Translations under genes and position numbers: made by a program
IMG/VR virus record: IMGVR_UViG_3300027365_000027
Span: 1 to 42,820 of that record
Origin: a virus
Strand: one strand, 5' to 3'
Length of the DNA stretch: 42,820 nt
Notes under the pieces: generated by a model
What the model was told of the DNA's origin: nothing
The model's database searches: none
Seen by the model: only the letters and a program-made list of their open reading frames with translations
In this document: in pieces, positions 8,720 through 41,732 of the stretch
How positions within the stretch are numbered: the first letter of the stretch is position 1
How the letters are laid out: every line of letters begins with the position of its first letter

Positions 8720-8746
8720 TTGCAGTAATGCAATATTGCAATAATG
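8720..8746. repeat. TGCA octamer-repeat element, copy 2
   Basis: Four TGCA/TGCAG-type units at 8-bp spacing (TGCAGTAA, TGCAATAT, TGCAATAA) lie 21 bp upstream of the start of the minus-strand 179-residue gene, in otherwise GC-rich DNA. Likely a promoter or protein-binding site. Confidence 0.75.
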
Positions 8747-8765
8747 GGACCCCCGAAGGGGTCCC
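8746..8765 (-). terminator. Hairpin after the major capsid gene
   Basis: GGGACCCC and GGGGTCCC form an 8-bp stem with a CGAA-type loop directly downstream of the capsid stop. On the minus strand it runs into an AT-rich repeat element instead of a U-tract. Confidence 0.6.
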
Positions 8766-9963: not shown

Positions 9964-9982
9964 CTTATTGCATTATTGCAAT
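9964..9982. repeat. TGCA octamer-repeat element, copy 3
   Basis: TTATTGCATTATTGCAAT lies 10 bp upstream of the capsid start on the minus strand and touches the stop of the scaffold gene. It is the only AT-rich block between the two genes. Confidence 0.75.
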
Positions 9983-11172
9983 CACATCAGTTTCTCGTTG
10001 ATCAGCTTCTCGAACTCATCGTCCGACAACGCCAGGGGGTTGAAGTCGGCGGAGGCGCCGGACGTCTTCGGGGCTGTACGGGTAGAGCTTGCCGCTCGCT
10101 TCTTGCTCTTGCGCTTGCCATCCTCGGCCTTCGGCTTGGCGACGACGGTCTTCCTGGCTGGTTCCTGTGCCGGTGCCTGCGTGAACAGGTCGTCAAAGGC
10201 GCCCTTGGCCTGGAGTTCGTCGCCCACCGTCCGGTAGGCATCGAGGTCCGACAAGCCGGTCAAGCGACCAAACGCGCGCTGCCGTTCCATCTCGGTACTG
10301 ATCCGGTCATAGACGCCACTGGCCATGTGGTCGTTGATCACCTTCAGCAGTTGAGGTTGTTCGGCCACGACACGCTTGCTGGGCCCATCCCACTTATTGC
10401 TCACGAGATCGATGGTCTGGCTGTAGGTCGGTGTGTCCTGGATGTCGTCCAGTACCGCGTCCAGCTCCAGCTCACGGTCGTCAACAGTGTAAGTCTCGGG
10501 CTTGTATTCGCTTTCCTTCTCGGTGTCGATGTCCAGTGGATCGAGTCCACTGTCCTTGATCAGCTTCTGGATCGCTTGGGGATTCTTCTTCTCCAGGTCG
10601 ATCAGGTAGCTGAGCTTCTCCGGCTCGAGGAGATTATTGTTCTCCAGGAGCTTGATCGTTTTCAAATGCGGCTTGAGGGCCGCCATCTTCTTGTTGTAGT
10701 TGGCCCCCATCTGCATGAGGGTACGGGCTTCCTCGGCGGTCTCGACCCGCATCTCCTTGCCGTTGGCACGGAACGGGGCGAACAGGGCCTCGTACTCTTT
10801 CCGGTAGTCGACCTCGGATGTGTCGTCTTCCTGTTCGTCCTTCTCGTCGTCGTCCGCCGCGGTCTCTTCCGTGTCGGTATCGGTCTCGTCGTCTACCGAG
10901 CCCGTCTCCCCAGCCTCATCGGAGTCCGGTGAATCAGACTCATCGGATGCTGAGGATTCATCGTCCTCGCCGTCGTCACCATCAGTGTCGTCAGCGTCCG
11001 GCTCAGCGGTGTCATCGGTGGCCTCCTCCGCGCTGTCCTGGGCATCTTCCGTCTCGGGTTCGCGGGTATCCGCGGAACCAAAGGCCTCCGGGCCCAGGTT
11101 CATGATCTCGTCGTCGGAGAGACTGGCCAGTCTCTCCTCACTCATGGCTGCCGTGTCGGTGGATACGCTCAT
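9982..11172 (-). CDS. Acidic scaffold-like protein (N4 gp57 position)
   Basis: This encodes 396 residues. Residues about 35-120 are almost entirely Asp, Glu, Ser and Thr (intrinsically disordered), followed by a helical charged middle and a basic Lys/Arg-rich segment before the conserved-looking C-terminal helix ([18 protein letters not shown]). An acidic disordered half with a short C-terminal capsid-binding helix is typical of phage scaffolding proteins, and the gene lies directly before the capsid gene. Its ATG overlaps the stop of the upstream 114-residue gene by 4 nt. Confidence 0.7.
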
Positions 11173-13721: not shown

Positions 13722-13752
13722 TTCAATAATGCACTATTGCAATAATGCAATG
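13722..13752. repeat. TGCA octamer-repeat element, copy 4
   Basis: Successive TGCACTAT, TGCAATAA and TGCAATGA units, 8 bp apart, lie 12 bp upstream of the portal start on the minus strand. This is the best candidate for a head-operon promoter or operator. Confidence 0.75.
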
Positions 13753-18267: not shown

Positions 18268-18932
18268 TCCTCCAGCACCTTGAGCGCTCGCTTGAAGCGC
18301 TCCACCCGATCGGCCAGGCCGTGATACCCGCCATTGATCTCGCGGGTCGTGGTCTTGATGTCCCCGCCGGTCACCCGCTCGGTCCAGAACCAGACGGCCG
18401 AGGCCACTGCAATCTCCGGGGCATCACTCAGCCGCTCCGGCTGCCTGAGCAGATCGACCCCCAAGGCCCGACTGCAGGCGGTGTAGTTGGCCCGGCCGGT
18501 CAGCTGGAAGATCCCCCGCCCCCGATAGCGGTACCCATCCCCGGGCTGGGTGTTGCCCAGGTTCCGCTCTCCCCAGATACCGCCGTACAGCAGGTTGCCC
18601 AGCGCCTCCTCATCGGCCGGGTGTGCCGCGTTACGACCGAACCGACCCGCCTGAACCAGGGAAATCCGATGCCGGCCGAACAGCTTCTCCAGGGCTTCCT
18701 CGCCGTAGTTCAGCGACTCCTCGAGCTCACGGAAGCTGGCGCTCTCGTGACCGGCTTGTGCCAGGAACAACGCCACGTCGTGGTCGCTCTCGATACCGGC
18801 ACGGCTGAGCTGTGTCTGCAGGGGCTCGGCCCACCGCTCGGATTGATGGCAGGCCGGGACCATGCGGGCCAGGCAATGCGGGGTCAGCACCTTGGGCGTC
18901 AGCAGTAACGCCTCATCCATCCATTGTTGCAT
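18264..18932 (-). CDS. Endolysin, glycoside hydrolase 19 (chitinase-like muramidase)
   Basis: This encodes 222 residues with GH19 hallmarks: ALFLAQAGHESASFRELEES, with the catalytic Glu after GH, then YRGRGIFQLTGRANY and the C-terminal GGYHGLADRVERF. No signal peptide or membrane anchor is present, so it needs a holin for release; the LydA-like holin is far away at 41.1 kb. The start chosen (18932) lies inside a TGCA repeat element with GGAG about 10 nt upstream. An internal ATG 12 nt later is an alternative. It is the first gene of the minus-strand late operon. Confidence 0.85.
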   Translation of the reverse strand: MQQWMDEALLLTPKVLTPHCLARMVPACHQSERWAEPLQTQLSRAGIESDHDVALFLAQAGHESASFRELEESLNYGEEALEKLFGRHRISLVQAGRFGRNAAHPADEEALGNLLYGGIWGERNLGNTQPGDGYRYRGRGIFQLTGRANYTACSRALGVDLLRQPERLSDAPEIAVASAVWFWTERVTGGDIKTTTREINGGYHGLADRVERFKRALKVLEE

Positions 18933-18950
18933 TATTGCAATACTCCAATA
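18924..18950. repeat. TGCA octamer-repeat element, copy 5
   Basis: TGTTGCATTATTGCAATACT has two TGCA cores 8 bp apart. It overlaps the start codon of the endolysin gene and is the first element of the leftward late unit. Confidence 0.7.
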
Positions 18951-19101
18951 AGCGATGGCGATAGTGTACGGGCGGCGTATCAGGCGTGCTGAAGAAATCT
19001 ACAAGGCGTACTTAGGTCAGGTTTTCCGGATTTTGCTCATCGGGGTATGGAGGCAGGTCTCACTGTCTTGACACAACAAAACAAAAGACCCCCCCCCTAT
19101 A
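18951..19101. other. Divergent intergenic region with C9 tract
   Basis: No gene is visible between the leftward endolysin and the first rightward early promoter. The stretch holds an A/C-rich, G-poor run ending in nine C residues (19089-19097) just before the promoter hairpin. In linear N4 DNA the late right end and the early left end are the physical termini. If that holds here, the join of genome ends, or a collapsed terminal repeat, should lie in or near this stretch. Confidence 0.45.
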
Positions 19102-19118
19102 CGCTCCGCGGTAGTAAG
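19102..19118 (+). promoter_or_regulatory. vRNAP-type early promoter P-A
   Basis: CGCTCCGCGG forms a 3-bp core stem (CGC/GCG) around the loop TCC on the non-template strand (GGA on the template). N4 virion RNA polymerase promoters have a template hairpin with loop GGA inside GCGGAGC, the same seven bases. An AGG lies at the spacing of the N4 start site (19117-19119) and is conserved in all five copies. It is followed by a leader hairpin and the 59-residue gene. Confidence 0.75.
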
Positions 19119-19140
19119 GGAATAGGGACGCCTGTTCCTA
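19119..19140 (+). promoter_or_regulatory. 5' leader hairpin of first early transcript
   Basis: GAATAGG and CCTGTTC pair with one G-U around ACG, within a few bases of the predicted transcript start. Comparable hairpins follow promoters P-B, P-C and P-D, suggesting 5'-end protection of early mRNA. Confidence 0.5.
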
Positions 19141-19164
19141 TCTATCAACTCAGGAGATCTCCTC

Positions 19165-19344
19165 ATGTTCTACGCCATTCGCAACGCCATCATCCTCATC
19201 TTCACTGCCATCAGCACGCTGGCCAATGCAGCCAACAAGGGCGCCACAGCCCTGGATACTCTGGCAGACATCACCGTCGACGAGTCCGAGTTCTATCGTG
19301 ACTCACGTCGTGCACAGCGCACCAAGGAACTTGAGCAACTGTGA
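19165..19344 (+). CDS. Small early membrane-associated protein, 59 aa
   Basis: The ATG at 19165 follows the strong ribosome site CAGGAGATCTCCTC. Residues 1-22 (MFYAIRNAIILIFTAISTLA) are hydrophobic with one Arg, fitting an inner-membrane helix. The rest is charged, with a basic RDSRRAQRTKELEQL tail. As the first gene after an early promoter it is a candidate host-takeover protein. A hairpin terminator follows within a few bases, so it forms a one-gene transcription unit. I do not recognise the family with confidence. Confidence 0.7.
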   Translation: MFYAIRNAIILIFTAISTLANAANKGATALDTLADITVDESEFYRDSRRAQRTKELEQL

Positions 19345-19348
19345 GACC

Positions 19349-19376
19349 AGGCCACCCTTCGGGGTGGCCTTAAAAT
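19349..19376 (+). terminator. Terminator after 59-aa early gene
   Basis: AGGCCACCC TTCG GGGTGGCCT followed by TAAAA forms a 9-bp stem with a stable TTCG tetraloop. Confidence 0.75.
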
Positions 19377-19405
19377 CCACACAACACAACACATAAGAGA
19401 CAGAA

Positions 19406-19441
19406 AGTCCCTAGAAAGACAGGGACTATTCCTGCCCTGTC
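19406..19441 (+). promoter_or_regulatory. Mutually exclusive hairpins upstream of promoter P-B
   Basis: AGTCCCT (19406-19412) can pair with AGGGACT (19421-19427). Alternatively GACAGGG (19418-19424) can pair with CCCTGTC (19435-19441). The two stems share bases, so only one can form at a time, as in attenuators. Confidence 0.4.
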
Positions 19442-19453
19442 ACACCACATACA

Positions 19454-19470
19454 CGCTCCGCGGCAGTGAG
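19454..19470 (+). promoter_or_regulatory. vRNAP-type early promoter P-B
   Basis: CGCTCCGCGG with TCC loop, then GCAGTG and AGG at the same spacing as P-A. It is followed by a CAGGC/GCCTG leader hairpin and the 30-residue gene. Confidence 0.72.
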
Positions 19471-19514
19471 GAATAACAGGCAATCCAGCCTGCCCAACTC
19501 ACGGAGACACCAGC

Positions 19515-19607
19515 ATGCACAGCTCCTACATCAACACCTGTCCGGTCTGTGGTGACGTCGATGCAGGGATTGCTGATAGCCCTGAAGAGGACATAATCCC
19601 CTTCTAA
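19515..19607 (+). CDS. Tiny early protein with CPVC motif, 30 aa
   Basis: The ATG at 19515 follows an ACGGAGACACCAGC ribosome site and opens a 30-residue frame containing one CPVCG knuckle and an acidic tail. One Cys pair could bind zinc as a dimer. It is supported as a gene by its own promoter, leader hairpin, ribosome site and terminator, the same module layout as its neighbours. The function is unknown; small early zinc proteins in lytic phages often bind host enzymes. Confidence 0.55.
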   Translation: MHSSYINTCPVCGDVDAGIADSPEEDIIPF

Positions 19608-19620
19608 GCAAACCGATATA

Positions 19621-19655
19621 CCACCGGCACACTAACGTGTCGGTGGCTTCTTCCC
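19621..19655 (+). terminator. Terminator after 30-aa early gene
   Basis: CCACCGGCACA and TGTCGGTGG-type arms enclose a CTAACG loop, followed by CTTCTTCC. Confidence 0.7.
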
Positions 19656-19694
19656 CTGAAACAGTGCCTGTCGCTGTTCACCAGATGTTCTCGT

Positions 19695-19715
19695 TACCGC
19701 TCCGCGGTAGAGAGG
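19695..19715 (+). promoter_or_regulatory. vRNAP-type early promoter P-C
   Basis: TACCGC TCC GCGGTA is a perfect 6-bp stem with a 3-nt loop, the canonical N4 vRNAP hairpin geometry. AGGG follows at the conserved spacing, then a GGGAATGGCA/TGCCTTCCC leader hairpin. Upstream sequence CGCTGTTCACCAGA is shared with P-D, so the modules are duplicates. Confidence 0.8.
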
Positions 19716-19755
19716 GAATGGCAATGATGCCTTCCCCGATAACGGAGAGATCATC

Positions 19756-19905
19756 ATGAAAATCACCTTCTTCTACGTATGCCCGGAATGTGCCTGCAGC
19801 TGGTCATCTACCCAGTCACTGGCTGGCATGTCGTTCATCGACAGTTCCTGTCATTGCCCTTCCTGTCAGGAGGAGTGCGAGGCACAGGAACAGAAGCTCA
19901 GCTGA
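19756..19905 (+). CDS. Small early zinc-ribbon protein, 49 aa
   Basis: The ATG at 19756 follows ACGGAGAGATCATC. Two CxxC pairs (CPEC at residues 9-12, CPSC at about 34-37) plus extra Cys residues define a zinc ribbon. The tail is acidic and Gln-rich. It has its own hairpin promoter and a terminator-like stem, so it is a separate early unit. A compact zinc ribbon made first in infection suggests binding to a host nucleic-acid enzyme, but no target can be read from the sequence. Confidence 0.7.
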   Translation: MKITFFYVCPECACSWSSTQSLAGMSFIDSSCHCPSCQEECEAQEQKLS

Positions 19906-19912
19906 CACACAT

Positions 19913-19934
19913 CCCATCACCGTCAGGTGGTGGG
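19913..19934 (+). terminator. Hairpin after zinc-ribbon early gene
   Basis: CCCATCACC GTCA GGTGGTGGG is a 9-bp stem with one G-U pair. There is no U-tract, so it may be an incomplete terminator. Confidence 0.5.
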
Positions 19935-19965
19935 GTGGCTATCGCTATTCACCAGACAGTTGGAT

Positions 19966-19988
19966 TACCGCTCCGCGGTAGACAGGAA
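19966..19988 (+). promoter_or_regulatory. vRNAP-type early promoter P-D
   Basis: TACCGC TCC GCGGTA is a perfect 6-bp stem identical to P-C, with AGG at the same distance. It drives the 95-residue gene, and possibly the genes beyond the following terminator. Confidence 0.8.
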
Positions 19989-20029
19989 TGGATGTTCCGT
20001 TCCTCACTTCATCGATCCAGGAGATCACC

Positions 20030-20317
20030 ATGGCCTTTGCAAAGAATACCAACAGCAACGTCTCTTCCTTCGCTTCTCGTGGCAAGTCACGCGAGGAATC
20101 CTGGAAGGCGGATGCGTTCCTGAACTTCTACCTGCCGACCAAGAATGGCCGTCGCAAGGTGGGTTACATCCCGCTGAAGGCCTCGAAGGCACTGGAAGCC
20201 TACATCCTTGAGCGTCTGGGTGACGCGGACGAGGCCACCATGGCGGCCTTCAAGGAAGCACTGGTCATCGAGGTCTCGAGTGCCGAGGCCGACGAGGACA
20301 ACCTGCCGCTGTTCTGA
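20030..20317 (+). CDS. Early protein of unknown function, 95 aa
   Basis: The ATG at 20030 has CAGGAGATCACC directly upstream. The protein has a Ser/Asn-rich head, a central segment that looks conserved (AFLNFYLPTKNGRRKVGYIP, about residues 29-48) and an acidic tail ending in NLPLF. Acidic tails with a terminal Phe occur in single-strand-binding-type proteins, but no OB fold is evident, so I leave the function open. It is the largest gene of the early hairpin-promoter array and is followed by a very strong terminator. Confidence 0.75.
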   Translation: MAFAKNTNSNVSSFASRGKSREESWKADAFLNFYLPTKNGRRKVGYIPLKASKALEAYILERLGDADEATMAAFKEALVIEVSSAEADEDNLPLF

Positions 20318-20336
20318 GTCAGCGGGTACCGCATCT

Positions 20337-20368
20337 GGCCCATGCCCTTCGGGGTGTGGGCCTTTTTT
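20337..20368 (+). terminator. Strong intrinsic terminator after early array
   Basis: GGCCCATGCCC TTCG GGGTGTGGGCC followed by TTTTTT. It is the best terminator of the window and closes the P-D unit. Confidence 0.92.
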
Positions 20369-20393
20369 ATGCCGATCTCACGGGAGTACACCC

Positions 20394-20543
20394 ATGCGCC
20401 GATTCATTCGCAAGCATCAAGGCAAGCTATTCATCGTGGTCATCCTGCTGGCCTACGGCATCGTCGGGAACATGGAAGTGCATGACGCCCAGTGCAGCTG
20501 GAACGGCTGCGGGGATGCCCGCTACATCCAGTCCGAGGAGTGA
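20394..20543 (+). CDS. Small single-pass membrane protein, 49 aa
   Basis: The ATG at 20394 has CGGGAG upstream. A basic N-terminus (MRRFIRKHQGK) is followed by one hydrophobic helix (LFIVVILLAYGIV) and a short outside part with two Cys (CSWNGC). This is N-in single-pass topology; a cleavable signal is less likely because no AxA site follows. It lies between the strong terminator and the next small gene, 3 nt apart from it. The function is unknown. Confidence 0.65.
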   Translation: MRRFIRKHQGKLFIVVILLAYGIVGNMEVHDAQCSWNGCGDARYIQSEE

Positions 20544-20546
20544 CTC

Positions 20547-20747
20547 ATGGAGATGGATGAAGCAGACATGGAGTGGGTGAGCCGATTTACCTCACCGCGT
20601 GGAATAAAGCATGGCATCTACCTCGCCAAGGCTTACCGAGGCACCTTTGACGCAGGCACCAGCTCCTTCCAGCAGTACAGCGACAAGGTCTGGACACGGC
20701 GCCTTCGCTACCTCGAAGCCAAGGCCCTGATCATGGGCATTACCTGA
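20547..20747 (+). CDS. Small early protein, 66 aa
   Basis: The ATG at 20547 sits 3 nt after the preceding stop with GAGGAGTG upstream. The product has an acidic N-terminus and a basic, aromatic C-terminus (KVWTRRLRYLEAKALIMG). It has no Cys and no membrane segment. It is translationally coupled to the membrane-protein gene and ends directly before promoter P-E. I do not recognise it. Confidence 0.6.
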   Translation: MEMDEADMEWVSRFTSPRGIKHGIYLAKAYRGTFDAGTSSFQQYSDKVWTRRLRYLEAKALIMGIT

Positions 20748-20750
20748 TAA

Positions 20751-20767
20751 CGCTCCGCGGCGGGAAG
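20751..20767 (+). promoter_or_regulatory. vRNAP-type early promoter P-E
   Basis: CGCTCCGCGG with TCC loop and AGG at the conserved distance. Within 50 bp come a TGCA octamer element and a terminator-like hairpin, so output to the RNA polymerase genes may be controlled by read-through. Confidence 0.7.
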
Positions 20768-20773
20768 GACTGA

Positions 20774-20797
20774 TACTGCAATATTGCATTACTGCAA
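20774..20797. repeat. TGCA octamer-repeat element, copy 6
   Basis: TGCAATAT, TGCATTAC and TGCAAGG at 8-bp steps, between promoter P-E and a hairpin, 42 bp upstream of the next gene. Confidence 0.72.
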
Positions 20798-20818
20798 GGC
20801 CCCAATTCCGGGGCCTTT
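20796..20818 (+). terminator. Attenuator-like terminator before RNA polymerase operon
   Basis: AAGGCCCC AATTCC GGGGCCTTT forms a stable stem followed by a short U-run. It lies downstream of promoter P-E and upstream of the genes that promoter would serve. Confidence 0.7.
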
Positions 20819-20838
20819 GCTGTTTCAGGAGACAGGAA

Positions 20839-20988
20839 ATGGCCGAATTTATCGCCTACCTCGAACAGACCATGCGTCCGAGGCAGTCTGAAGAAGATGA
20901 GCAGATCCAAGCACTTATCGACAAGTACGAGGATCAGGACAGGCTCGCCCTGAACGAGAATCTGAACCAGAAAATGGAGTGGAATTGA
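20839..20988 (+). CDS. Small acidic protein, 49 aa
   Basis: The ATG at 20839 follows CAGGAGACAGGAA. The product is helical and strongly acidic (QSEEDEQIQALIDKYEDQD) without Cys or membrane segments. It is the first gene of the run leading into RNA polymerase subunit 1, and its stop lies 2 nt before the next ATG, suggesting coupling. Unknown function. Confidence 0.6.
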   Translation: MAEFIAYLEQTMRPRQSEEDEQIQALIDKYEDQDRLALNENLNQKMEWN

Positions 20989-20990
20989 TT

Positions 20991-21167
20991 ATGCGAAAGG
21001 ACTTCGAGGCCTGGCTTGCCAAGCGACTCAATGAGAAGAACCGCACCACCTACTGGACCCAGGAACGGGTGCGAGAGCACATGACCCACGACGGTCACTA
21101 TGGCCGTAAGGACTGGAACATGGCCCATGACGCCTACCTTGCCGGACGCTGCCATCCTCACAACTAG
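20991..21167 (+). CDS. Small basic protein, 58 aa
   Basis: I prefer the ATG at 20991, just after the previous stop, over an in-frame ATG at 20979 that would overlap the neighbour. The product is basic and His-rich (REHMTHDGHYGRKDWNMAHD), with a repeated aromatic pattern. It lies 10 nt before RNA polymerase subunit 1. Small phage proteins with 'AYLAGR' C-termini are common in phages, but I know no function. Confidence 0.6.
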   Translation: MRKDFEAWLAKRLNEKNRTTYWTQERVREHMTHDGHYGRKDWNMAHDAYLAGRCHPHN

Positions 21168-21177
21168 GGAAGAGACC

Positions 21178-22128
21178 ATGACCCAGCCTGTTACCCACAT
21201 GCTGCCCCGTGACATGCAGCTGACCAACGAATCCCTGTACTCGAAGAAGGCCATCGACTGCTACATCGACCGGGAGATTCGTGACAATCCCGACATGGAA
21301 GCCAAGGTCATCGAGGGCATGCAGCGCCTCGAGGCCTGGCGTGCCAAGTCCTACTACGACTCCAAGAATGCCCGACTGGCCCAGCTCGACGGGCTGGACC
21401 TGGAGGAGGTGGTCAGGCGCATCTACATCAACGTCGCCTACTGCCAGCTCCCGGAGCTGTTCACCTCTGTGACAGGCCGGCTGGCCGGCGTGCTGCGCAT
21501 GTCCGAGAAGGGCGATGGCATCACCACCATCGGCGAGATGCTGGCCGTGCTGTGCCTGACCGATGTCTTCGACATCATGAAGGAGAACGCCATGGCCAGC
21601 CTCAAGGTGCAGAGTCACATTCCCCTGAGCGAGCGCCTCATCGAGTACGTCAGTCAGGCCCGCTACCTGCCGCCCATGGTCTGCGAGCCCGCACCCGTGA
21701 CCCACAACTTCGAGAGTCCCTACCTGACCGAGAACTCGTGCCTGATTCTCGGCAAGGGCAATGGCCACACCGAGGACATCTGCCGTGACGTGATCAACAC
21801 CCAGAACCAGGTGCCCCTGAGTCTCAACCTCGAGATGCTCACCACCATCGAGCTGTTCCCCAAGCCCGGCAAGGAGCCGGTCACGCCCGAGGATCAGGAG
21901 CAGTGGCACCGCTACAAGGTCCAGACCTACGAGGTCTGTCACCTGATGGCCAAGCAGGGCAACCGCTTCTGGCTGACCAACAAGGTCGACAAGCGGGGGC
22001 GCCTGTACTGTCAGGGCTACCAAATAAATTTACAGGGATCTGGATGGCACAAGGCCGTGCTCGACTATGCCGACAGGGAGACCGTGGAAGGCGTGCCAGA
22101 CAGCCTCAGGCTGCCACCACGGGCCTGA
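21178..22128 (+). CDS. T7-like RNA polymerase, subunit 1 (N4 RNAPII gp15-like)
   Basis: This encodes 316 residues. It covers the N-terminal and thumb-side half of a single-subunit RNA polymerase up to the T/DxxGR motif, seen as DKRGRLYCQGYQINLQGSGW (DKRGR at 271-275). T7 polymerase has DWRGR followed by a NPQG-type loop at the same place. The frame then ends after VEGVPDSLRLPPRA, just where the T7 sequence continues into the region found in the next polymerase gene. N4 RNAPII is likewise two proteins. It would transcribe middle genes. Codons for the conserved Tyr-Gln-Ile-Asn-Leu-Gln stretch (22021-22043) are abruptly AT-rich. Confidence 0.82.
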   Translation: MTQPVTHMLPRDMQLTNESLYSKKAIDCYIDREIRDNPDMEAKVIEGMQRLEAWRAKSYYDSKNARLAQLDGLDLEEVVRRIYINVAYCQLPELFTSVTGRLAGVLRMSEKGDGITTIGEMLAVLCLTDVFDIMKENAMASLKVQSHIPLSERLIEYVSQARYLPPMVCEPAPVTHNFESPYLTENSCLILGKGNGHTEDICRDVINTQNQVPLSLNLEMLTTIELFPKPGKEPVTPEDQEQWHRYKVQTYEVCHLMAKQGNRFWLTNKVDKRGRLYCQGYQINLQGSGWHKAVLDYADRETVEGVPDSLRLPPRA

Positions 22129-22566: not shown

Positions 22567-23154
22567 ATGAGTCAGTTTCAGCCCCTCGAGGACGCACGCG
22601 TCGACCTCGACAGCGGGGAGCTTGTCGTCTCCCGACAGTACCGCAGCGACCGGCCCTACCGAGCGGATACGCAGCCGGTCCAGCCCACCTTTGCCGACAT
22701 CCGCAGCATCGCCGGCCTGCGCCGGTTCCTCGATCATGTCGATCGCCGCACCCTGGTACGTGCCAACGACTGCCGTCGCATCTATGACCGCGACAAGGGC
22801 AACCACCACCTGCAGAGGCGAGCCATCGTCTTCACCAACCACCAGTACGGGCATCTCGACCGGCTGGTGCGCCAGCTCGACTACGCCAATGCCGTGATCA
22901 CCACGCCCGTGGATCTGGCTCGGCGCCTGGGCGTGCGTCGCAACCACCTGTATCGCCACCTTGAGACCCTGACGCCGCTGGTGCGGGTCTACGGGGTCCG
23001 CGAGGGCATGGCCAAGGGCAGCATCCGGGTCGATGTCAGTCCCGCCTATGGCTTCCGCTATCCCAGTCCGTGGTTCGGGCTGGCACGGGCCGAGGCCATC
23101 CAGACCTGGTACCTGTCCCTGTTGCAGCAATACAACACTGCATTATTGCAATAA
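22567..23154 (+). CDS. Winged-helix Rep-like or regulator protein between RNAP subunits, 195 aa
   Basis: The ATG at 22567 follows CGGAGATCCCAC. Residues about 95-160 form a winged-helix pattern: LVRQLDYANAVITTPVDLAR, then RLGVRRNHLYRHLETLTPLV, ending in a wing and the 'VSPAYGFRYPSPWF' turn. That order (helix, recognition helix, basic wing, aromatic turn) is typical of RepL-type plasmid replication proteins and phage replication/transcription factors. The N-terminal part is Arg-rich. The gene separates two RNA polymerase subunit genes, has a strongly folded leader, and its stop lies inside an octamer-repeat element. Replication initiator and regulator both remain possible. Confidence 0.6.
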   Translation: MSQFQPLEDARVDLDSGELVVSRQYRSDRPYRADTQPVQPTFADIRSIAGLRRFLDHVDRRTLVRANDCRRIYDRDKGNHHLQRRAIVFTNHQYGHLDRLVRQLDYANAVITTPVDLARRLGVRRNHLYRHLETLTPLVRVYGVREGMAKGSIRVDVSPAYGFRYPSPWFGLARAEAIQTWYLSLLQQYNTALLQ

Positions 23155-23160
23155 TGAAAT
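23139..23160. repeat. TGCA octamer-repeat element, copy 7
   Basis: CTGCATTATTGCAATAATGA carries two TGCA cores 8 bp apart and contains the stop codon of the Rep-like gene. It lies 35 bp upstream of RNA polymerase subunit 2. Confidence 0.7.
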
Positions 23161-23194: not shown

Positions 23195-23434
23195 ATGACC
23201 CATTACTCTGCCTTCGAGTACCTGCTGATTGATGTGGCCAACCAGATGGGCCACGACAAGCTGCTGTTCGGGGAACGAATCCAGTGGACCCTCGAGCGTA
23301 TCGATCACCTCGAGGAGCTGCTCGGCGAGGCCGAGAACCCGGAGCGCTATGCCCGGGCCGTGATGGCGGTGCGCGAGGCCCAGCGGGGCGAGGCGACCGG
23401 CCACCGGGTGGGCCTGGATGCGCTTTGTTCGGGT
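23195..23434 (+). CDS. T7-like RNA polymerase subunit 2, fragment a, exon 1
   Basis: The start ATG at 23195 has a strong TTAGGAGATCACCCC site, supporting an independent subunit as in N4 (gp16-like). Exon 1 gives 80 residues; LLIDVANQMGHDKLLFGERI matches the T7 polymerase segment before motif A. It ends at LDALCSG, with the motif A catalytic Asp at residue 75. The exon ends in T at 23434, as group I splice sites do. Without splicing the frame stops two codons later (AAA TGA). Codons at the junction (CTT TGT TCG GGT) are atypical for this GC-rich genome. Confidence 0.82.
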
Positions 23435-23765
23435 AAATGACTGCCCCTTTGGTGTGCGAGCACCATCGAAAACTCCGTGAATTGCTGGGACACCTGACCG
23501 CGTGATGGCGAAGGCAATCAGCAGCCAAGCCCTAGGAGGAATCCTAGGGAAGGTTCAACGACTAGGGCATACCATCCAGACCGGATGATGAAGCCCATAA
23601 GGATCAAGCGATCCTGAAGTGCGGAGCACCTCAACGAGGTGATGATATAGTCTCACCTGCATAGAAATATGCAGCAGCATCAGCAGATTTAAAGGGTACA
23701 CCTTTGGTGATCTGCCAAGGCCTGATGATGCGGACATCGAGTAGCGATCGATGTTGAAGATTGTG
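23435..23765 (+). ncRNA. Group I intron in RNA polymerase motif A (331 nt, no ORF)
   Basis: Core elements in order: AATTGCTGGGA (P), AATCAGCAGCC (Q), GGTTCAACGACTAGGG (R) and GATGATATAGTCT (S), the conserved group I set. The intron ends in G at 23765. Splicing joins LDALCSG to VQIMSALTG and restores the T7 motif A (T7 has LDGSCSGIQ). It encodes no endonuclease, so it is minimal and probably depends on another nuclease for mobility. Its core is very similar to that of the MoxR intron. Confidence 0.88.
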
Positions 23766-24194: not shown

Positions 24195-24251
24195 TGAACC
24201 ACGCTACTGTTTGCTATTATACCGGCATATCACTAATGCAAGGAGCACCGC

Positions 24252-24915
24252 TATGCCTAAGCCCATCGATCTGACCGACCACACCTACGGACGCCTGACT
24301 GTGCTGCGGGAGGTTGATCCTCCTGTCTATCCCCGCAAATGGCACTGCCGCTGCGAGTGTGGCACCGAGAAGGTGATCACCGGAGCCTCTCTCCGCAATG
24401 GTAAGACGCAATCCTGCGGGTGCCTTAACAAGGAGATTCTGTCGGCCAAGGGCACTGTCCACGGTGCCCACGGCACCCGGCTCTACAGCATCTGGCACAA
24501 CATGCGCCAGCGCTGTAACAACCCCAACCGTAAGACCTATGCCTACTACGGGGCCCTGGGCATCACGGTATGCCCTGAATGGAACACCTTTGCCCCCTTC
24601 AAGGCATGGGCAGAGTCCTCGGGCTACGAGGACGGTCTGACGCTGGATCGCAGGGATGGTAGCCAAGGTTACTCCCCTGAGAATTGCCGATGGGTGACGC
24701 ATACGGTTCAGTCACGGAACCAGAAGAAGCGACGTACCAATACCACCGGCCATACAGGCGTTCATTACCTCAAGCACCTGGGCAAGTACGAGGTCTACCT
24801 CACGCTCAGCTACAAGAAGACCGTCCTGGGCTACTTCGACACCGCGGATGAGGCAGCAGCAGCGCGTGCCGCCTACATCAAAGAGAACAATCTCACCGAC
24901 TTTCCCACCGACTAG
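24252..24915 (+). CDS. HNH/AP2-type homing endonuclease splitting RNA polymerase subunit 2
   Basis: The ATG at 24252 has AAGGAGCACCGCT upstream; the product is 220 residues. A zinc-finger-like N-terminus (CRCECGTEKVITGASLRNGK, then CGCLN) is followed by the phage homing-nuclease core: YSIWHNMRQRCNNPN, then YGALGITVCPEWN, then LTLDRRDGSQGYSPENCRWV. The last 55 residues are an AP2-like DNA-binding domain (GVHYLKHLGKYEVYL, then LGYFDTADEAAAARAAY). It has its own ribosome site, and only 57 nt precede and 12 nt follow it between the two polymerase fragments. It is therefore a free-standing nuclease that has fractured the gene. Confidence 0.82.
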
Positions 24916-24927
24916 AGGAAGAATCCC

Positions 24928-25548: not shown

Positions 25549-25563
25549 GTGCGCTCCGCGCAC
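25549..25563. repeat. TCC-loop hairpin, copy 1
   Basis: GTGCGCTCCGCGCAC is a perfect 6-bp stem with loop TCC, as in the early promoters. The AGG start-site sequence is missing at the right distance, so it is not assigned as a promoter. An identical copy lies at 25704. Confidence 0.6.
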
Positions 25564-25617: not shown

Positions 25618-25703
25618 GACCCACTCCAGAACACCCCAACCCCCAACACCCCTCTTGAGTCGAAACACCCACGCCGCTCGATCAGCGCCCTGGTCGACAA
25701 CAG

Positions 25704-25718
25704 GTGCGCTCCGCGCAC
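25704..25718. repeat. TCC-loop hairpin, copy 2
   Basis: Identical 15-mer to that at 25549, 155 bp away. Its left flank GACAACAG recurs before a related hairpin at 38566. Confidence 0.6.
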
Positions 25719-25860
25719 CCGGCGACGGTGGCGACACCGGCTCAGACAGTCTCCAGCGACAGGGGAATAGAAGTCCCGAGACTTCTCCCCGGACAGTCCG
25801 ACGATGTTCTAACTGGCCGAAATCGGCCCTCTCCGACGATACAACGACGAGGCAATATCC

Positions 25861-26861: not shown

Positions 26862-26953
26862 GTATCACCGTATCCCTCGACCAGGTCCACGACGACATCG
26901 TGCGCTGCATCAAGGCCCGCCTGACCCCGATGCTCTGGGGCTCGCCAGGTATT
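26858..26953 (+). CDS. MoxR-like AAA+ ATPase, exon 1 (N4 gp24-like)
   Basis: The 32 codons from the ATG at 26858 end in LWGSPGI, the first part of the Walker A loop. The exon ends in T at 26953. Joining to exon 2 (GKSGL) gives GSPGIGKS, a perfect P-loop (residues 28-35). The start overlaps the upstream stop. The final codons (CCA GGT ATT) are atypical for this genome, as at the other intron junctions. Without splicing the frame stops at once (TAA). Confidence 0.85.
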
Positions 26954-27192
26954 TAACTTTTTCTAGGTACCTTTGGGGAGCAATCCCCTCAAAATAAACC
27001 CCTTGAATTGCTGGGAACCCCTGAAGCCCTGTCACCACAGGCACCGCGAAAGCAGGTGTCGAAGGTTAGAAAACGACAGGGATTGGGCAATCAGCGGCCA
27101 AGCCCCTAAGTCCTTTGGATATGGGGAAGGTTCAACGACTAGCCGCAAGGCGTACACCTCAAGCGAGGTGGAAGTGGGGGGCTCCGTTATTT

Positions 27193-27231
27193 TTGACTTT
27201 CCGTGCGGTGCTCCCTATATTATTGGAGCAC
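27193..27231 (+). promoter_or_regulatory. Host sigma70-type promoter with operator-like repeat for intronic HNH
   Basis: TTGACT (27193-27198), 17-bp spacer, TATATT (27216-27221). The -10 lies in the loop of a perfect inverted repeat GTGCTCC/GGAGCAC (27208-27214, 27225-27231), which could bind a repressor or fold in RNA. It lies 29 bp before the HNH start. Confidence 0.65.
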
Positions 27232-27249
27232 ACCTTACGAGGATTAAGC

Positions 27250-27870
27250 ATGGAAACGTTCAAGGACATTGTAGGATACGAAGGCCTTTACCAAGTCTCT
27301 GACCAGGGACGAGTCATTAGCCTGAGACGCCAAATAGAATTGAAGACAGATGTCTTCACTTCTGGCTCTGTCAGCTATGCTCGCGTCACCCTGAGCAAAG
27401 ACAGTAAGACTGAACGCTTCTTGGTGCATCGCTTGGTTGCGATGGCCTTTCTCCCGAATCCTGATGAAAAGCCCTGCGTAAACCATAAGGATAACAATGG
27501 GTTAAACAACAGTTCGGATAATTTGGAATGGTGTACGTATTCCGAGAATATGCAGCATTCCGTGAAGCAGGGTCGTCAGGCCCTTGTTCAGTCAAATGCC
27601 ACCCAGGCTGCAGTCGTGCCGAATTACAATCGGTACACGGACTACTGGAGAACGAAGCTAGGTGAGCGCTTTGTTGCGTTCTACCCCGCACATCAGGTGG
27701 TGCATGGCGGAACCAAGCCTTGTGCCGCTGTCCGGTATATTTGCAGCGAATGTGGCATCAGCCGTCTCAGTCGAACAAACTGGGCTGAGATTCGTGTTCA
27801 CAAAGGTGTGTGTCCTAACTGCACCTACACAGTGTCCCTAACGGATGAAGATATAGTCTCGACTGCGTAG
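27250..27870 (+). CDS. Intron-encoded HNH homing endonuclease (NUMOD4 + HNH)
   Basis: The ATG at 27250 has GAGGATTAAGC upstream; 206 residues. NUMOD4 at the N-terminus (FKDIVGYEGLYQVSDQGRVI), then the HNH core (LVHRLVAMAFLPNPDEKPCV, then NHKDNNGLNNSSDNLEWCTY) at about 60-100. The C-terminal part carries four Cys (CSECG, CPNC) forming a zinc ribbon not seen in the polymerase-intron relative. Its GC is far lower than the surrounding exons. It probably cleaves intron-less MoxR alleles at the P-loop. The stop codon lies inside the intron S element, a tight co-adaptation. Confidence 0.88.
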   Translation: METFKDIVGYEGLYQVSDQGRVISLRRQIELKTDVFTSGSVSYARVTLSKDSKTERFLVHRLVAMAFLPNPDEKPCVNHKDNNGLNNSSDNLEWCTYSENMQHSVKQGRQALVQSNATQAAVVPNYNRYTDYWRTKLGERFVAFYPAHQVVHGGTKPCAAVRYICSECGISRLSRTNWAEIRVHKGVCPNCTYTVSLTDEDIVSTA

Positions 27871-27930
27871 AAATACGTAGAAGTTCATAAGAGAACTGGT
27901 GGCGGGGTAGCGCCCGCCATTGAAGATACG

Positions 27931-32377: not shown

Positions 32378-32401
32378 TGCGTTATTGCAATAATGCAATA
32401 C
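32378..32401. repeat. TGCA octamer-repeat element, copy 8
   Basis: TGCGTTAT, TGCAATAA and TGCAATAC at 8-bp steps, 23 bp upstream of the 126-residue gene that precedes DNA polymerase. Confidence 0.75.
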
Positions 32402-32813: not shown

Positions 32814-34505
32814 ATGCACCACCTCATCTTCCAGGAGGCCGACCACTATCCAGTGGCGCTGCTGATCAAGCCGGCCTACCTGCGCCGCTACGAGATGCAG
32901 CGTCACTACCTGGATAGACTGGCCCCCGACATCAGCGCCAGCCAGGTGATCGCCTTCGATCTCGACTACGGCGGCAAGAAGAAGCCCACCGCCCGCATCG
33001 CCAAGGCCTACCTGGAGGACCTGCTGCCGATCCTGCAGGAGCAGGGGGTGGTGTACCTGTACTGTGCCGACGCCGAGTATTTCAAGGTGCTCACCAGGCA
33101 GCCCAAGGCCGAGCCCCATGTGGGCTACGTGCTGCCCTGTGCCCTCAAGGGCTTCGAGCACATGCGCGTGGTCCTCGGTGTCAACTACGGCCAGCTGGTC
33201 TACAACCCCGAGGTGGTGGATCGCCTGGACATGACGCTCGAGACCCTGGTGGGGGCTGTCACCGGCTCCTATCAGGCCCCGGGCACCGGCATCATCCGCC
33301 ATGCCCACTACCCCAACACCTCGCTGGAGATCAGCGCGGCGCTCGACAACCTGCACCAGCACGACGAGCTGGCCTGCGACATCGAGGCCTTCAGCCTGCA
33401 CCCGTTCAAGGCCGGCATCGGCACCATCGCCTTCGCCTGGAGCCAGCATGAAGGGATCGCCTTCGCCTGCGACTACTCCGGGACCCTCAACGACGAGGAA
33501 CACGAGGTGGGACTGCGTGGCGTGCAGGTGGCCAACCCCGCGGTGCGTCATCACCTGCGCCGGTTCTTCGAGACCTACCAGGGACGGCTGCGCTGGCACA
33601 ACGCCAGTTACGACATCCGCTCGATCATCGCCGTCCTGTGGATGCGCCATCCCAAGGATTATGCGGGCCTGCTCACGGGCCTCTCGGTCATGACCCGGAC
33701 GTTTCACGACACCAAGGTGATCGCCTACCTGGCCACCAACTCCACGGCAGGCAACAAGCTGGGCCTCAAGGCCCTGGCTCACGAGTTCACCGGCAACTAT
33801 GCCCAGGAGGACATCAAGGATATTCGGCGTATACCGTTATCTCAGTTGCTCGAGTACAACCTCGTCGACTCCCTTGCCACCAACTACGTGTTCGACAAGC
33901 ACTATCCGGCCATGGTCCGCGACCAGCAGAAAGAGCTGTACGAGACCCTGATGCTCCCGAGCCTCAAGACCATCGTGCAGATGGAACTGGTCGGCATGCC
34001 CATGGAGCCAACCAGCGTCACCCATGCCCGGCGCCAGCTGGAACAGGAACTGGCCACGCACCAGGCGGTACTGGATGCCAGCCCTGCCGTGTATCGCTTC
34101 AATCGCTGGCTCCAGCACGACGCCATGGAGAAGGCCAATGCCAAGCTCAAGGCTAAGCAGCACCCGCTCTCGGCGTTCTCGCACATCACCCTCAACCCCA
34201 ACAGTGGTCCCCAGCTGCAGGCGTTCCTCTTCGAGCATCTGGAACTGCCGGTGCTCGACTACACCGACACCAAGCAGCCGGCCACCGGACGCAAGACCCT
34301 CGAGAAGCTCAAGAACCACACCACGGATGCCGGGGTGCTGGCGGTCCTCGATGCCCTGATCGGCATCAACAAGGTCGCCAAGATCCTGTCGGCCTTCATC
34401 CCCAAGTTCGAGGAAGCCCTGGTCAAGGACGATCGGCTGGCCTGGCTGCATGGCTCGTTCAACCTGGGTGGCACCGTTTCGGGCCGGCTGTCGTCCTCGG
34501 ATCCT
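32814..34505 (+). CDS. DNA polymerase family A, exon 1 (N4 gp39-like)
   Basis: The ATG at 32814 follows TTAGGAGCCGCC; 564 residues in this exon of an 881-residue protein. A 3'-5' exonuclease domain shows Exo I (ELACDIEAFSL), Exo II (WHNASYDIRSI) and Exo III (YNLVDSLATNYV). The polymerase domain starts after about 380 and reaches TVSGRLSSSDP, the motif preceding motif A. The exon ends in T at 34505. Codons at 33821-33848, just before Exo III, switch abruptly to AT-rich choices. It is the phage replicative polymerase. Confidence 0.92.
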
Positions 34506-35338
34506 TAAAGATAGGGCTTCATGCTGGTAACAGCATGTCGAAAACTGCCTAAACGGGGAAACTCCTATGGTATCTTACCTATGGTATTATTCTTCCATCA
34601 CTAAGCTACCAAAGGACAATCCCGTGCTAAATTCTACACCTGAGATTGGAAAACCCATCCCCGGTTTTGAGGACCTCTACGAGGTCTCCAACCATGGACG
34701 GGTCAGTAACTTTCGGAAGATTCTCAAGACCTACAAGATCAACAGTGGCTACCTGGCCCTCAAGCTACAGAAGGATGGCAAGGTAAAAAGCGTGCTGTTG
34801 CATCGTCTGGTTGCAGAACTGTTTGTCCCTAACCCAGAAGGGAAGCCTGAGGTGAACCACATCGATGGCAACAAGGAGAACAACAGGGCTGACAACCTGG
34901 AGTGGGTCACTAGTGCTGAGAATAAGGCTCATGCCCGTTCGACAGGCCTGTCTGTCTACAACATGCCAGGCAAGGGCGTGAAGAAAGCCACCACCAAGTC
35001 CAGGTATCACAACGTGGCTTGGGATTCTTCCCGAAAAAAGTGGGTCGGCAAGGTCACAATCAACAACCGCAACTACAAGCAACGGCGGTTTGATGATGAG
35101 ATCGAGGCGGCACGCTACGTCAATCAGTTACTGGATGAGCTGGGCTTGTATGACCGGCCCCGCAATCAGGTGTAGATAAACGCCGAACGACTATCCCGCA
35201 AGGGAGTAGGGTGCAAGCCAATGGCACCCGAAACGGCAGTCACCCTTAGGGGTGTTGATATAGTCTGCTCTGCATGGCGACATGCAGCAGTTCATAAGAG
35301 AACGGGGGAGGGCGTTGCGTCCCTCCTCGAACACAAGG
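34506..35338 (+). ncRNA. Group I intron in DNA polymerase (833 nt, with HNH ORF)
   Basis: Core: AAACTGCCTAAACGGGGAAA (P region), GCCGAACGACTATCCCGCAA (R) and GTTGATATAGTCTGC (S). It starts after T (34505) and ends in G (35338). Removal joins SSSDP to NLQQIP, restoring the family A signature. The HNH ORF is placed before R, unlike in the MoxR intron. The 3' region GTTCATAAGAGAAC is shared with the MoxR intron. Confidence 0.9.
34624..35175 (+). CDS. Intron-encoded HNH homing endonuclease (NUMOD4 + HNH + AP2)
   Basis: NUMOD4 (GFEDLYEVSNHGRVSNF), the HNH core (LLHRLVAELFVPNPEGKPEV, then NHIDGNKENNRADNLEWVTS) and a C-terminal AP2 domain (YHNVAWDSSRKKWVGKVTIN, then RRFDDEIEAARYVNQLL). The start is uncertain. 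I annotate the GTG at 34624, which has AAAGGACAATCCC upstream; ATGs at 34567 and 34579 are alternatives but lack a good site. It presumably recognises the conserved DPNLQ coding sequence of intron-less polymerase genes. Confidence 0.82.
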   Translation: MLNSTPEIGKPIPGFEDLYEVSNHGRVSNFRKILKTYKINSGYLALKLQKDGKVKSVLLHRLVAELFVPNPEGKPEVNHIDGNKENNRADNLEWVTSAENKAHARSTGLSVYNMPGKGVKKATTKSRYHNVAWDSSRKKWVGKVTINNRNYKQRRFDDEIEAARYVNQLLDELGLYDRPRNQV

Positions 35339-41008: not shown

Positions 41009-41041
41009 TCCTGTCTGCCAGGGGCACTCCCGGTACAATGC

Positions 41042-41063
41042 GTTGTTGCAATAATGCAACAAC
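41042..41063. repeat. TGCA octamer-repeat element, copy 9
   Basis: GTTGTTGCA ATAA TGCAACAAC is a perfect 9-bp inverted repeat; TGCG, TGCA and TGCA cores are 8 bp apart. It ends 13 bp before the holin start. Confidence 0.78.
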
Positions 41064-41076
41064 ACCGGAGGGTGCC

Positions 41077-41520: not shown

Positions 41521-41732
41521 TGTCGTGTAACAACGACGCTGGATAAATCACCAGTCGTGCCCTCAAGCCGATAATCAAGATAAGGCGCGTAATCTTGAAT
41601 TTGTTGCGGGGCACCATAACCCGCCTGTAATCCTAAACGTAATTACATATTACGTAACGATAACGCTTGCAATATTGCAGTATTGAACTACGGCAATATT
41701 GCAATACTTCAATCACGCAAGAGGACTGAACC
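41521..41732. other. AT-rich intergenic region, possible origin or promoter
   Basis: This 212-bp gap has no gene and is the most AT-rich stretch of the right half. It contains a perfect inverted repeat ACGTAAT TACAT ATTACGT (41637-41655), the motif TTACGTAACGATAACG, and the largest octamer-repeat element (41667-41715). Its composition and symmetry suit a replication origin or a strong regulated promoter. Confidence 0.5.
41667..41715. repeat. TGCA octamer-repeat element, copy 10 (double)
   Basis: Two arrays in tandem, TTGCAATATTGCAGTATTG and CGGCAATATTGCAATACTTC, each with 8-bp periodicity. It is the longest member of the family, 18 bp upstream of the 82-residue gene. Confidence 0.75.

Follow-up and report, generated by a model that had tools for sequence, protein, structure and literature searches.

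The stretch considered here, hereafter the window, is the entire 42,820-bp virus contig of record IMGVR_UViG_3300027365_000027, and our subject is an array of five short hairpin sites on its plus strand (P1 to P5), which we read as putative early promoters of the virion RNA polymerase (vRNAP) of an N4-like phage. The minus strand carries the vRNAP N-terminus, the major head protein, a protein labelled tape measure, the portal and the large terminase, and the plus strand RNAP1, RNAP2 (in three pieces), DNA polymerase (in two pieces), a helicase and an ATPase. Assignment to the N4-like phages (Schitoviridae) follows from portal, major head protein, terminase, RNAP1/RNAP2 and a cysteine-free vRNAP N-terminus; the combination by which membership is judged, heterodimeric RNAP1/RNAP2 with N4-like portal, major head protein and DNA polymerase, is present. 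Since the portal is less than 60% identical to that of each of 480 matching phage records, RNAP1 44-45% identical to Litunavirus proteins (LIT1/LY218, Migulavirinae, the closest among named phages) and the vRNAP piece no more than about 31% identical to any of 53 relatives in the comparison, this is, going by sequence, an N4-like phage distant from the named ones. The early region, with its open reading frames (ORFs), and the vRNAP gene are laid out as follows.

2 to 2644, minus strand: vRNAP, N-terminal 881 amino acids (PHROG 2206, 'virion RNA polymerase'); the polymerase domain would lie past the window end.
19102 to 19119, plus strand: P1, CGCTCCGCGG, loop TCC at 19105-19107, AGG at 19117-19119; 3-bp GC stem, to which the DNA fold adds 3 pairs past an internal loop.
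19118 to 19139, plus strand: 5' RNA stem-loop predicted for the P1 transcript, with 9 pairs (-13.6 kcal/mol, z -4.6).
19165 to 19344, plus strand: ORF 1, 59 amino acids, no family match; ATG 47 nucleotides (nt) past the first G.
19349 to 19370, plus strand: 3' hairpin after ORF 1, 9 pairs, no T run.
19454 to 19471, plus strand: P2, CGCTCCGCGG, loop at 19457-19459, AGG at 19469-19471; 3-bp stem.
19477 to 19492, plus strand: RNA hairpin in the P2 leader, starting 8 nt past the A of AGG, z -2.1.
19515 to 19607, plus strand: ORF 2, 30 amino acids, no family match.
19621 to 19646, plus strand: 3' hairpin after ORF 2, 10 pairs, no T run.
19695 to 19715, plus strand: P3, 6-bp stem TACCGC/GCGGTA, loop TCC at 19701-19703, AGG at 19713-19715.
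19714 to 19736, plus strand: 5' RNA stem-loop predicted for the P3 transcript (-12.7 kcal/mol, z -3.7).
19756 to 19905, plus strand: ORF 3, 49 amino acids, no family match.
19910 to 19937, plus strand: 3' hairpin after ORF 3, 12 pairs, no T run.
19966 to 19986, plus strand: P4, 6-bp stem TACCGC/GCGGTA, loop TCC at 19972-19974, AGG at 19984-19986.
19984 to 20004, plus strand: 5' RNA stem-loop predicted for the P4 transcript (-10.9 kcal/mol, z -3.5).
20030 to 20317, plus strand: ORF 4, 95 amino acids, PHROG 6271 (family label 'toxin', a label only), E 2.6e-8.
20337 to 20362, plus strand: terminator-like hairpin with T run after ORF 4.
20751 to 20768, plus strand: P5, CGCTCCGCGG, loop at 20754-20756, AGG at 20766-20768; 3-bp stem, no 5' RNA hairpin.
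20796 to 20817, plus strand: terminator-like hairpin, after P5 and before the next ORF (20839).
21178 to 22128, plus strand: RNAP1 (N4 gp15-like), first large gene downstream of P5.

The 10-mer CGCTCCGCGG begins at 19102, 19454, 19698, 19969 and 20751 and thus recurs exactly five times between 19102 and 20760, as the first-pass annotation of this DNA had claimed, where a first-order Markov model expects 0.0058 copies (1,666-bp stretch, one strand). The whole window should hold 0.30 copies on both strands, and there is no further exact copy on either. The heptamer GCTCCGC by itself is not rare (12 in the window against 13.7 expected). At every site the template strand reads C-GGA-G, a three-base GNA loop closed by C:G, within the common core GCGGAGC, which the annotation had equated with that of N4 promoters; indeed, N4 P2 and P3 as read from the N4 record have the identical GCTCCGC core, N4 P1 having a TTC loop (we take as N4 P1, P2 and P3 the hairpins with loop centres at 96, 565 and 4554, ahead of gp1, gp2 and gp15). 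The two perfect 6-bp stems that had been claimed are found at 19698 and 19969, and these two sites (P3, P4), taken as single-stranded DNA, are clearly superior to shuffles in folding; the other three have just three perfect pairs (CGC/GCG) followed by an A:G mismatch. An AGG sets in 11 bases past the middle base of TCC in all five, which places GG at +12/+13 from the loop centre.

All five sites lie in the early region, on the early strand and ahead of early genes, and one to three tiny ORFs follow each of them, much as annotated. The units of P1 to P4 are near-identical: hairpin, leader with a Shine-Dalgarno-like sequence (47, 45, 42 and 45 nt from first G to ATG), one tiny ORF and a strong 3' RNA hairpin (9-12 pairs), which has a T run only after ORF 4; ORF 4 is followed by two more small ORFs, then P5. 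P5 differs, with 72 nt to the next ATG and the terminator-like hairpin in between, and it stands upstream of two tiny ORFs and RNAP1. No sigma-70-like site was found in 18900-21300, where 1.5 would be expected.

As to the polymerase, the partial protein at the window start, which the first-pass annotation had proposed as the probable vRNAP, does match PHROG 2206 (E 4e-63, profile positions 14-810 of 3406), the profile of the giant virion RNAP, and has no cysteine among its 881 residues; the vRNAP of LUZ7/LIT1 is likewise reported as cysteine-free in the part of PMC3715699 available to us. For comparison, an alignment was made of 53 vRNAP reading frames, without L220 and L221 (each the second part of a split gene) and without L226 (which repeats L184), and the catalytic motifs were viewed in 6 alignment rows. 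The residues that N4 uses at the loop centre (K114, R119, W129) are all kept in N4, G7C, JWAlpha, Paxi and PB119. A tie between the central loop base and these residues was dropped, the alignment being unreliable there outside the five phages. A search for relatives with the N-terminal vRNAP piece returned two stretches, neither of them a relative.

Taken together, the five sites very probably serve the virion RNA polymerase of an N4-like phage as early promoters, with binding and initiation argued from N4. By that analogy, gyrase supercoiling during DNA entry would extrude the small template-strand hairpin C-GGA-G, the injected vRNAP would bind its loop and stem, and transcription would start about 12 bases downstream, at the AGG. 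Four of the five promoters would then drive near-identical short units of one ORF each, and the 9-pair RNA stem-loop at the start of three transcripts may serve to protect or to release the 5' end of the early mRNA. The hairpin promoter is a known kind of switch; the window array is an unusually dense one.

For a wider view, relatives were taken as 80 uncultivated schitovirus loci, the best 80 of 299 found by RNAP1 with an alignment, and hairpins with a three-base loop and a stem of at least 5 bp were called upstream of RNAP1 in 81 regions (the relatives and the window). Among the 1,061 hairpins listed, the commonest loops before removal of near-duplicates were C-TCC-G (70 against 7 for the reverse complement), C-TAC-G (43 against 5) and C-TTC-G (25 against 4), all three strongly favouring the strand of the early genes. 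As a hairpin itself is identical on both strands, the strand control consists in comparing each loop with its reverse complement and in a selection blind to the stem. With near-duplicates removed, GG lies 10-15 bases past the loop centre in 78 of 102, +12 and +13 being the main positions; the other hairpins have it in 197 of 685, with a flat spread. Likewise, a start codon preceded by a Shine-Dalgarno sequence follows within 25-80 nt in 83% of 64 promoter hairpins and in 24% of 119 others. The strict stem-blind rule, CT[CAT]CG plus GG at +11 to +13, selects 332 sites in the 80 relatives and 160 on the other strand. In the former, pairs 2 to 5 match in 57, 57, 52 and 39%, where the other strand gives 24-26%; pairs 6 to 8 match at chance level, and stems reach at least 5 bp in 62 of 332 against 2 of 160. 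The relatives' sites thus appear, by their sequences, to have the 5-bp stem and three-base loop described for N4. A scan of viral contigs for the window's own extended motif gave 77 contigs with one match each, which look like chance, and no second array.

These figures bear on three other explanations of the array. The one that survives best, unlikely as we hold it to be, sees a decayed array in which only P3 and P4 with their 6-bp stems work and P1, P2 and P5 are relics; after all, the 3-bp stems of these three fold no better than shuffles in DNA (z -0.4, 0.2, 0.4). Relics, however, would hardly be expected to have kept the 10-mer, the AGG register, the leader length and, at P1, the 5' RNA hairpin, and 3-bp stems are themselves in excess among the relatives (27 of 332 stem-blind sites against 4 of 160 on the other strand). 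Moreover, since a DNA hairpin with a GNA loop needs no more than two GC pairs to be exceptionally stable, as stated in the portion of PMC4686876 at hand, 3-bp GC stems may be sufficient for a promoter hairpin.

Decidedly improbable to our minds are double-stranded operators, one ahead of every small early gene, that a regulator from phage or host would bind and whose hairpin is incidental. Such operators would account for a 10-mer that is kept even where the outer stem is unpaired (P1, P2, P5), yet not for relatives that keep the stem while its letters vary (pairs 2-5, with several pair types), nor for the recurrence of one kind of loop with GG at a fixed distance and leader and start codon in place. 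Hardly credible, finally, are RNA elements in the transcripts (terminator hairpins or UNCG-tetraloop structures), for CTNCG does resemble an RNA C(UNCG)G tetraloop and strong 3' hairpins do stand between the units, but no T run follows the sites, GG peaks at +12/+13, and the pairing is symmetric about three bases rather than four, so that C:C would close the tetraloop in all five window sites.

The reading of the sites as vRNAP promoters has to be held against several findings that weigh against it, beside the poor folding of the three short stems. Sites 3 and 4 are 79% identical over 52 nt; they probably go back to a single duplication and are thus not fully independent. The vRNAP polymerase domain falls outside the window. 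P5 is without a 5' RNA hairpin, and that of P2 comes 8 nt late. The strict rule finds no site in 34 of the 81 regions, though some regions are short. And GG stands at +12 in five of five, not at the +11 of N4 (N4 has GG at +11/+12, the window at +12/+13 with A at N4's +1), so that the template offers T where N4 vRNAP reads +1 C. Hence the constant AGG distance of the first-pass annotation stands, its equation with the N4 start does not; as for its broader view of a phage that injects a vRNAP, the PHROG 2206 match, the missing cysteine and the N4-like genes bear it out, with the corrections that GG lies one base farther and that three of the five stems have 3 bp. Because +12 and +13 are the usual GG registers among the fetched relatives, the window spacing appears to be a clade trait and not a loss.

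The start site seems to have a second side to it. Transcripts of P1, P3 and P4 that begin at AGG would open with a stem-loop of about 9 pairs whose 5' arm lies at the start site, and N4 P1 and P2 transcripts also open with perfect 5-bp stems (GGACA/TGTCC and GGATG/CATCC), N4 P3 being weak. In the relatives, a stem of 4 or more Watson-Crick pairs that sets out at the first or the second G occurs in 39% of 69 sites and in 11% of shuffles, as compared to 13% against 9% for 161 other hairpins under the same test; in named phages the figures are 31% of 29 sites against 6% (K17alpha62, L085, was left out of this panel, the annotated features around its match being late genes). In 22-nt windows of the relatives the mean folding energy is -4.4 at the start site but -2.1 if the window is moved on by three bases, and about -1 beyond. 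A looser test that admits G:U pairs is weak (67% against 47% in shuffles; of 13 antisense control sites only 4 were usable, all of them positive), and the first paired base falls at GG in 74% of sites against 61% and 63% of controls, a slight excess. Our literature searches, which did not cover the older N4 promoter papers, found no mention of a 5' RNA hairpin on N4 early transcripts.

On balance we lean, with some reserve, towards a two-part early promoter in schitoviruses, in which a DNA hairpin would position the vRNAP and a start-site segment would encode the RNA stem-loop at the mRNA 5' end, with a GG spacing (11, 12 or 13) specific to the clade and the window as a dense set. The hairpin would be C-GNA-G on the template, its centre G, A or, against the N4 rule, T; a central loop purine is what the consulted parts of PMC4496689 and PMC6027278 state for N4-type promoters. 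Neither T at the loop centre, as in one large group, nor clade-dependent spacing is described in those parts of the N4-type promoter literature that we found.

Elsewhere in the window, the suggested scan for more copies brought up no exact one but two hairpins that had not been listed; they sit between RNAP2 and a helix-turn-helix gene, and a T-rich terminator hairpin follows the first.

25549 to 25563, plus strand: GTGCGC-TCC-GCGCAC, 6-bp stem, GCTCCGC core, no GG in register (no AGG); intergenic, downstream of RNAP2.
25703 to 25719, plus strand: GGTGCGC-TCC-GCGCACC, 7-bp stem, GCTCCGC core, no AGG; intergenic.

Late (minus) and early (plus) genes diverge at 18933-19102, where ten consecutive C directly precede P1. 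JWAlpha, Paxi, PB119, G7C and N4 have their first hairpin 61-96 bp in from the left end of the genome; by analogy, therefore, this phage probably has its physical end (a terminal repeat) around 19,010-19,050, with the contig probably assembled across it. Group I introns are seen at 23425-23674, 26950-27880 and 34495-35287 (two above the Rfam threshold with 86.5 and 74.1 bits, one below with 23.3 bits), interrupting RNAP2, before the ATPase and inside DNA polymerase, the latter two with HNH/NUMOD4 endonucleases; a second gap in RNAP2 (24195-24927) has no Rfam match. An endonuclease gene also interrupts RNAP2 in JWAlpha, according to the part of PMC3915230 available, and RNAP2 is interrupted in L087, L090, L102 and other loci too, so interrupted RNAP2 appears as a recurrent feature of the family. 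A second dispersed repeat, palindromic and TGCATTATTGCAATAATGCA-like in a genome of 60% GC, in most cases precedes the start codon of a late or an early/middle gene by a few tens of bases, and one copy sits between P5 and its terminator-like hairpin; it contains TGCAATAAT, which resembles an extended -10, and is a candidate operator or host-type promoter. Its copies are at:

about 23-43
8722-8747
9966-9983
13724-13752
18927-18943
20774-20797
23138-23158
32380-32400
41040-41064
41668-41705

If our reading holds, the array would tell us that this uncultivated phage brings an RNA polymerase of its own into the cell, and the signature would be usable to mark early promoters in other uncultivated N4-like phages. 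As loop centre and spacing vary by clade, vRNAP promoter recognition, for which the literature we found, as far as available, has structures from N4 only, is open to swaps of hairpins and polymerase domains. The start-site RNA stem-loop, N4 P1 and P2 included, provides a simple hypothesis on early mRNA stability or release.

How, then, does the window compare with known systems? With N4 it shares the three-base GNA template loop, the placement on the early strand before small genes, the GG shortly after and the 5' RNA stem-loop at the start (clear at N4 P1 and P2). N4 promoters require, in the accessible text of PMC4496689, a closing C:G and G and A in the loop, with specific reading of -11 A/G, -10 G, -8 G and +1 C; from the positions listed there the window keeps -12A, -11G, -10G, -9C and -8G, and -11 A/G, -10G and -8G are found at five of five sites. 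N4 differs in having three sites over 4.5 kb rather than five in 1.65 kb and stems of 5-7 bp rather than 6 or only 3, and the window is without a T run between hairpin and start. LIT1/LY218 have hairpin, GG and leader laid out as in the window, but the loop is TAC (template GTA, its centre not the N4 purine) and GG is at +13. Pectobacterium phage CB4, whose record annotates hairpins as N4-type early promoters (three per genome in the part of PMC6027278 we drew on), speaks against universality, as the annotated loops read GC-ATA-GC. With five sites the window exceeds the three known in N4, LIT1 and CB4 and is matched by the uncultivated schitovirus loci L127, L129 and L140 with five strict-rule sites each, L127 and L140 differing in their TAC loops on perfect stems of 5-6 bp.

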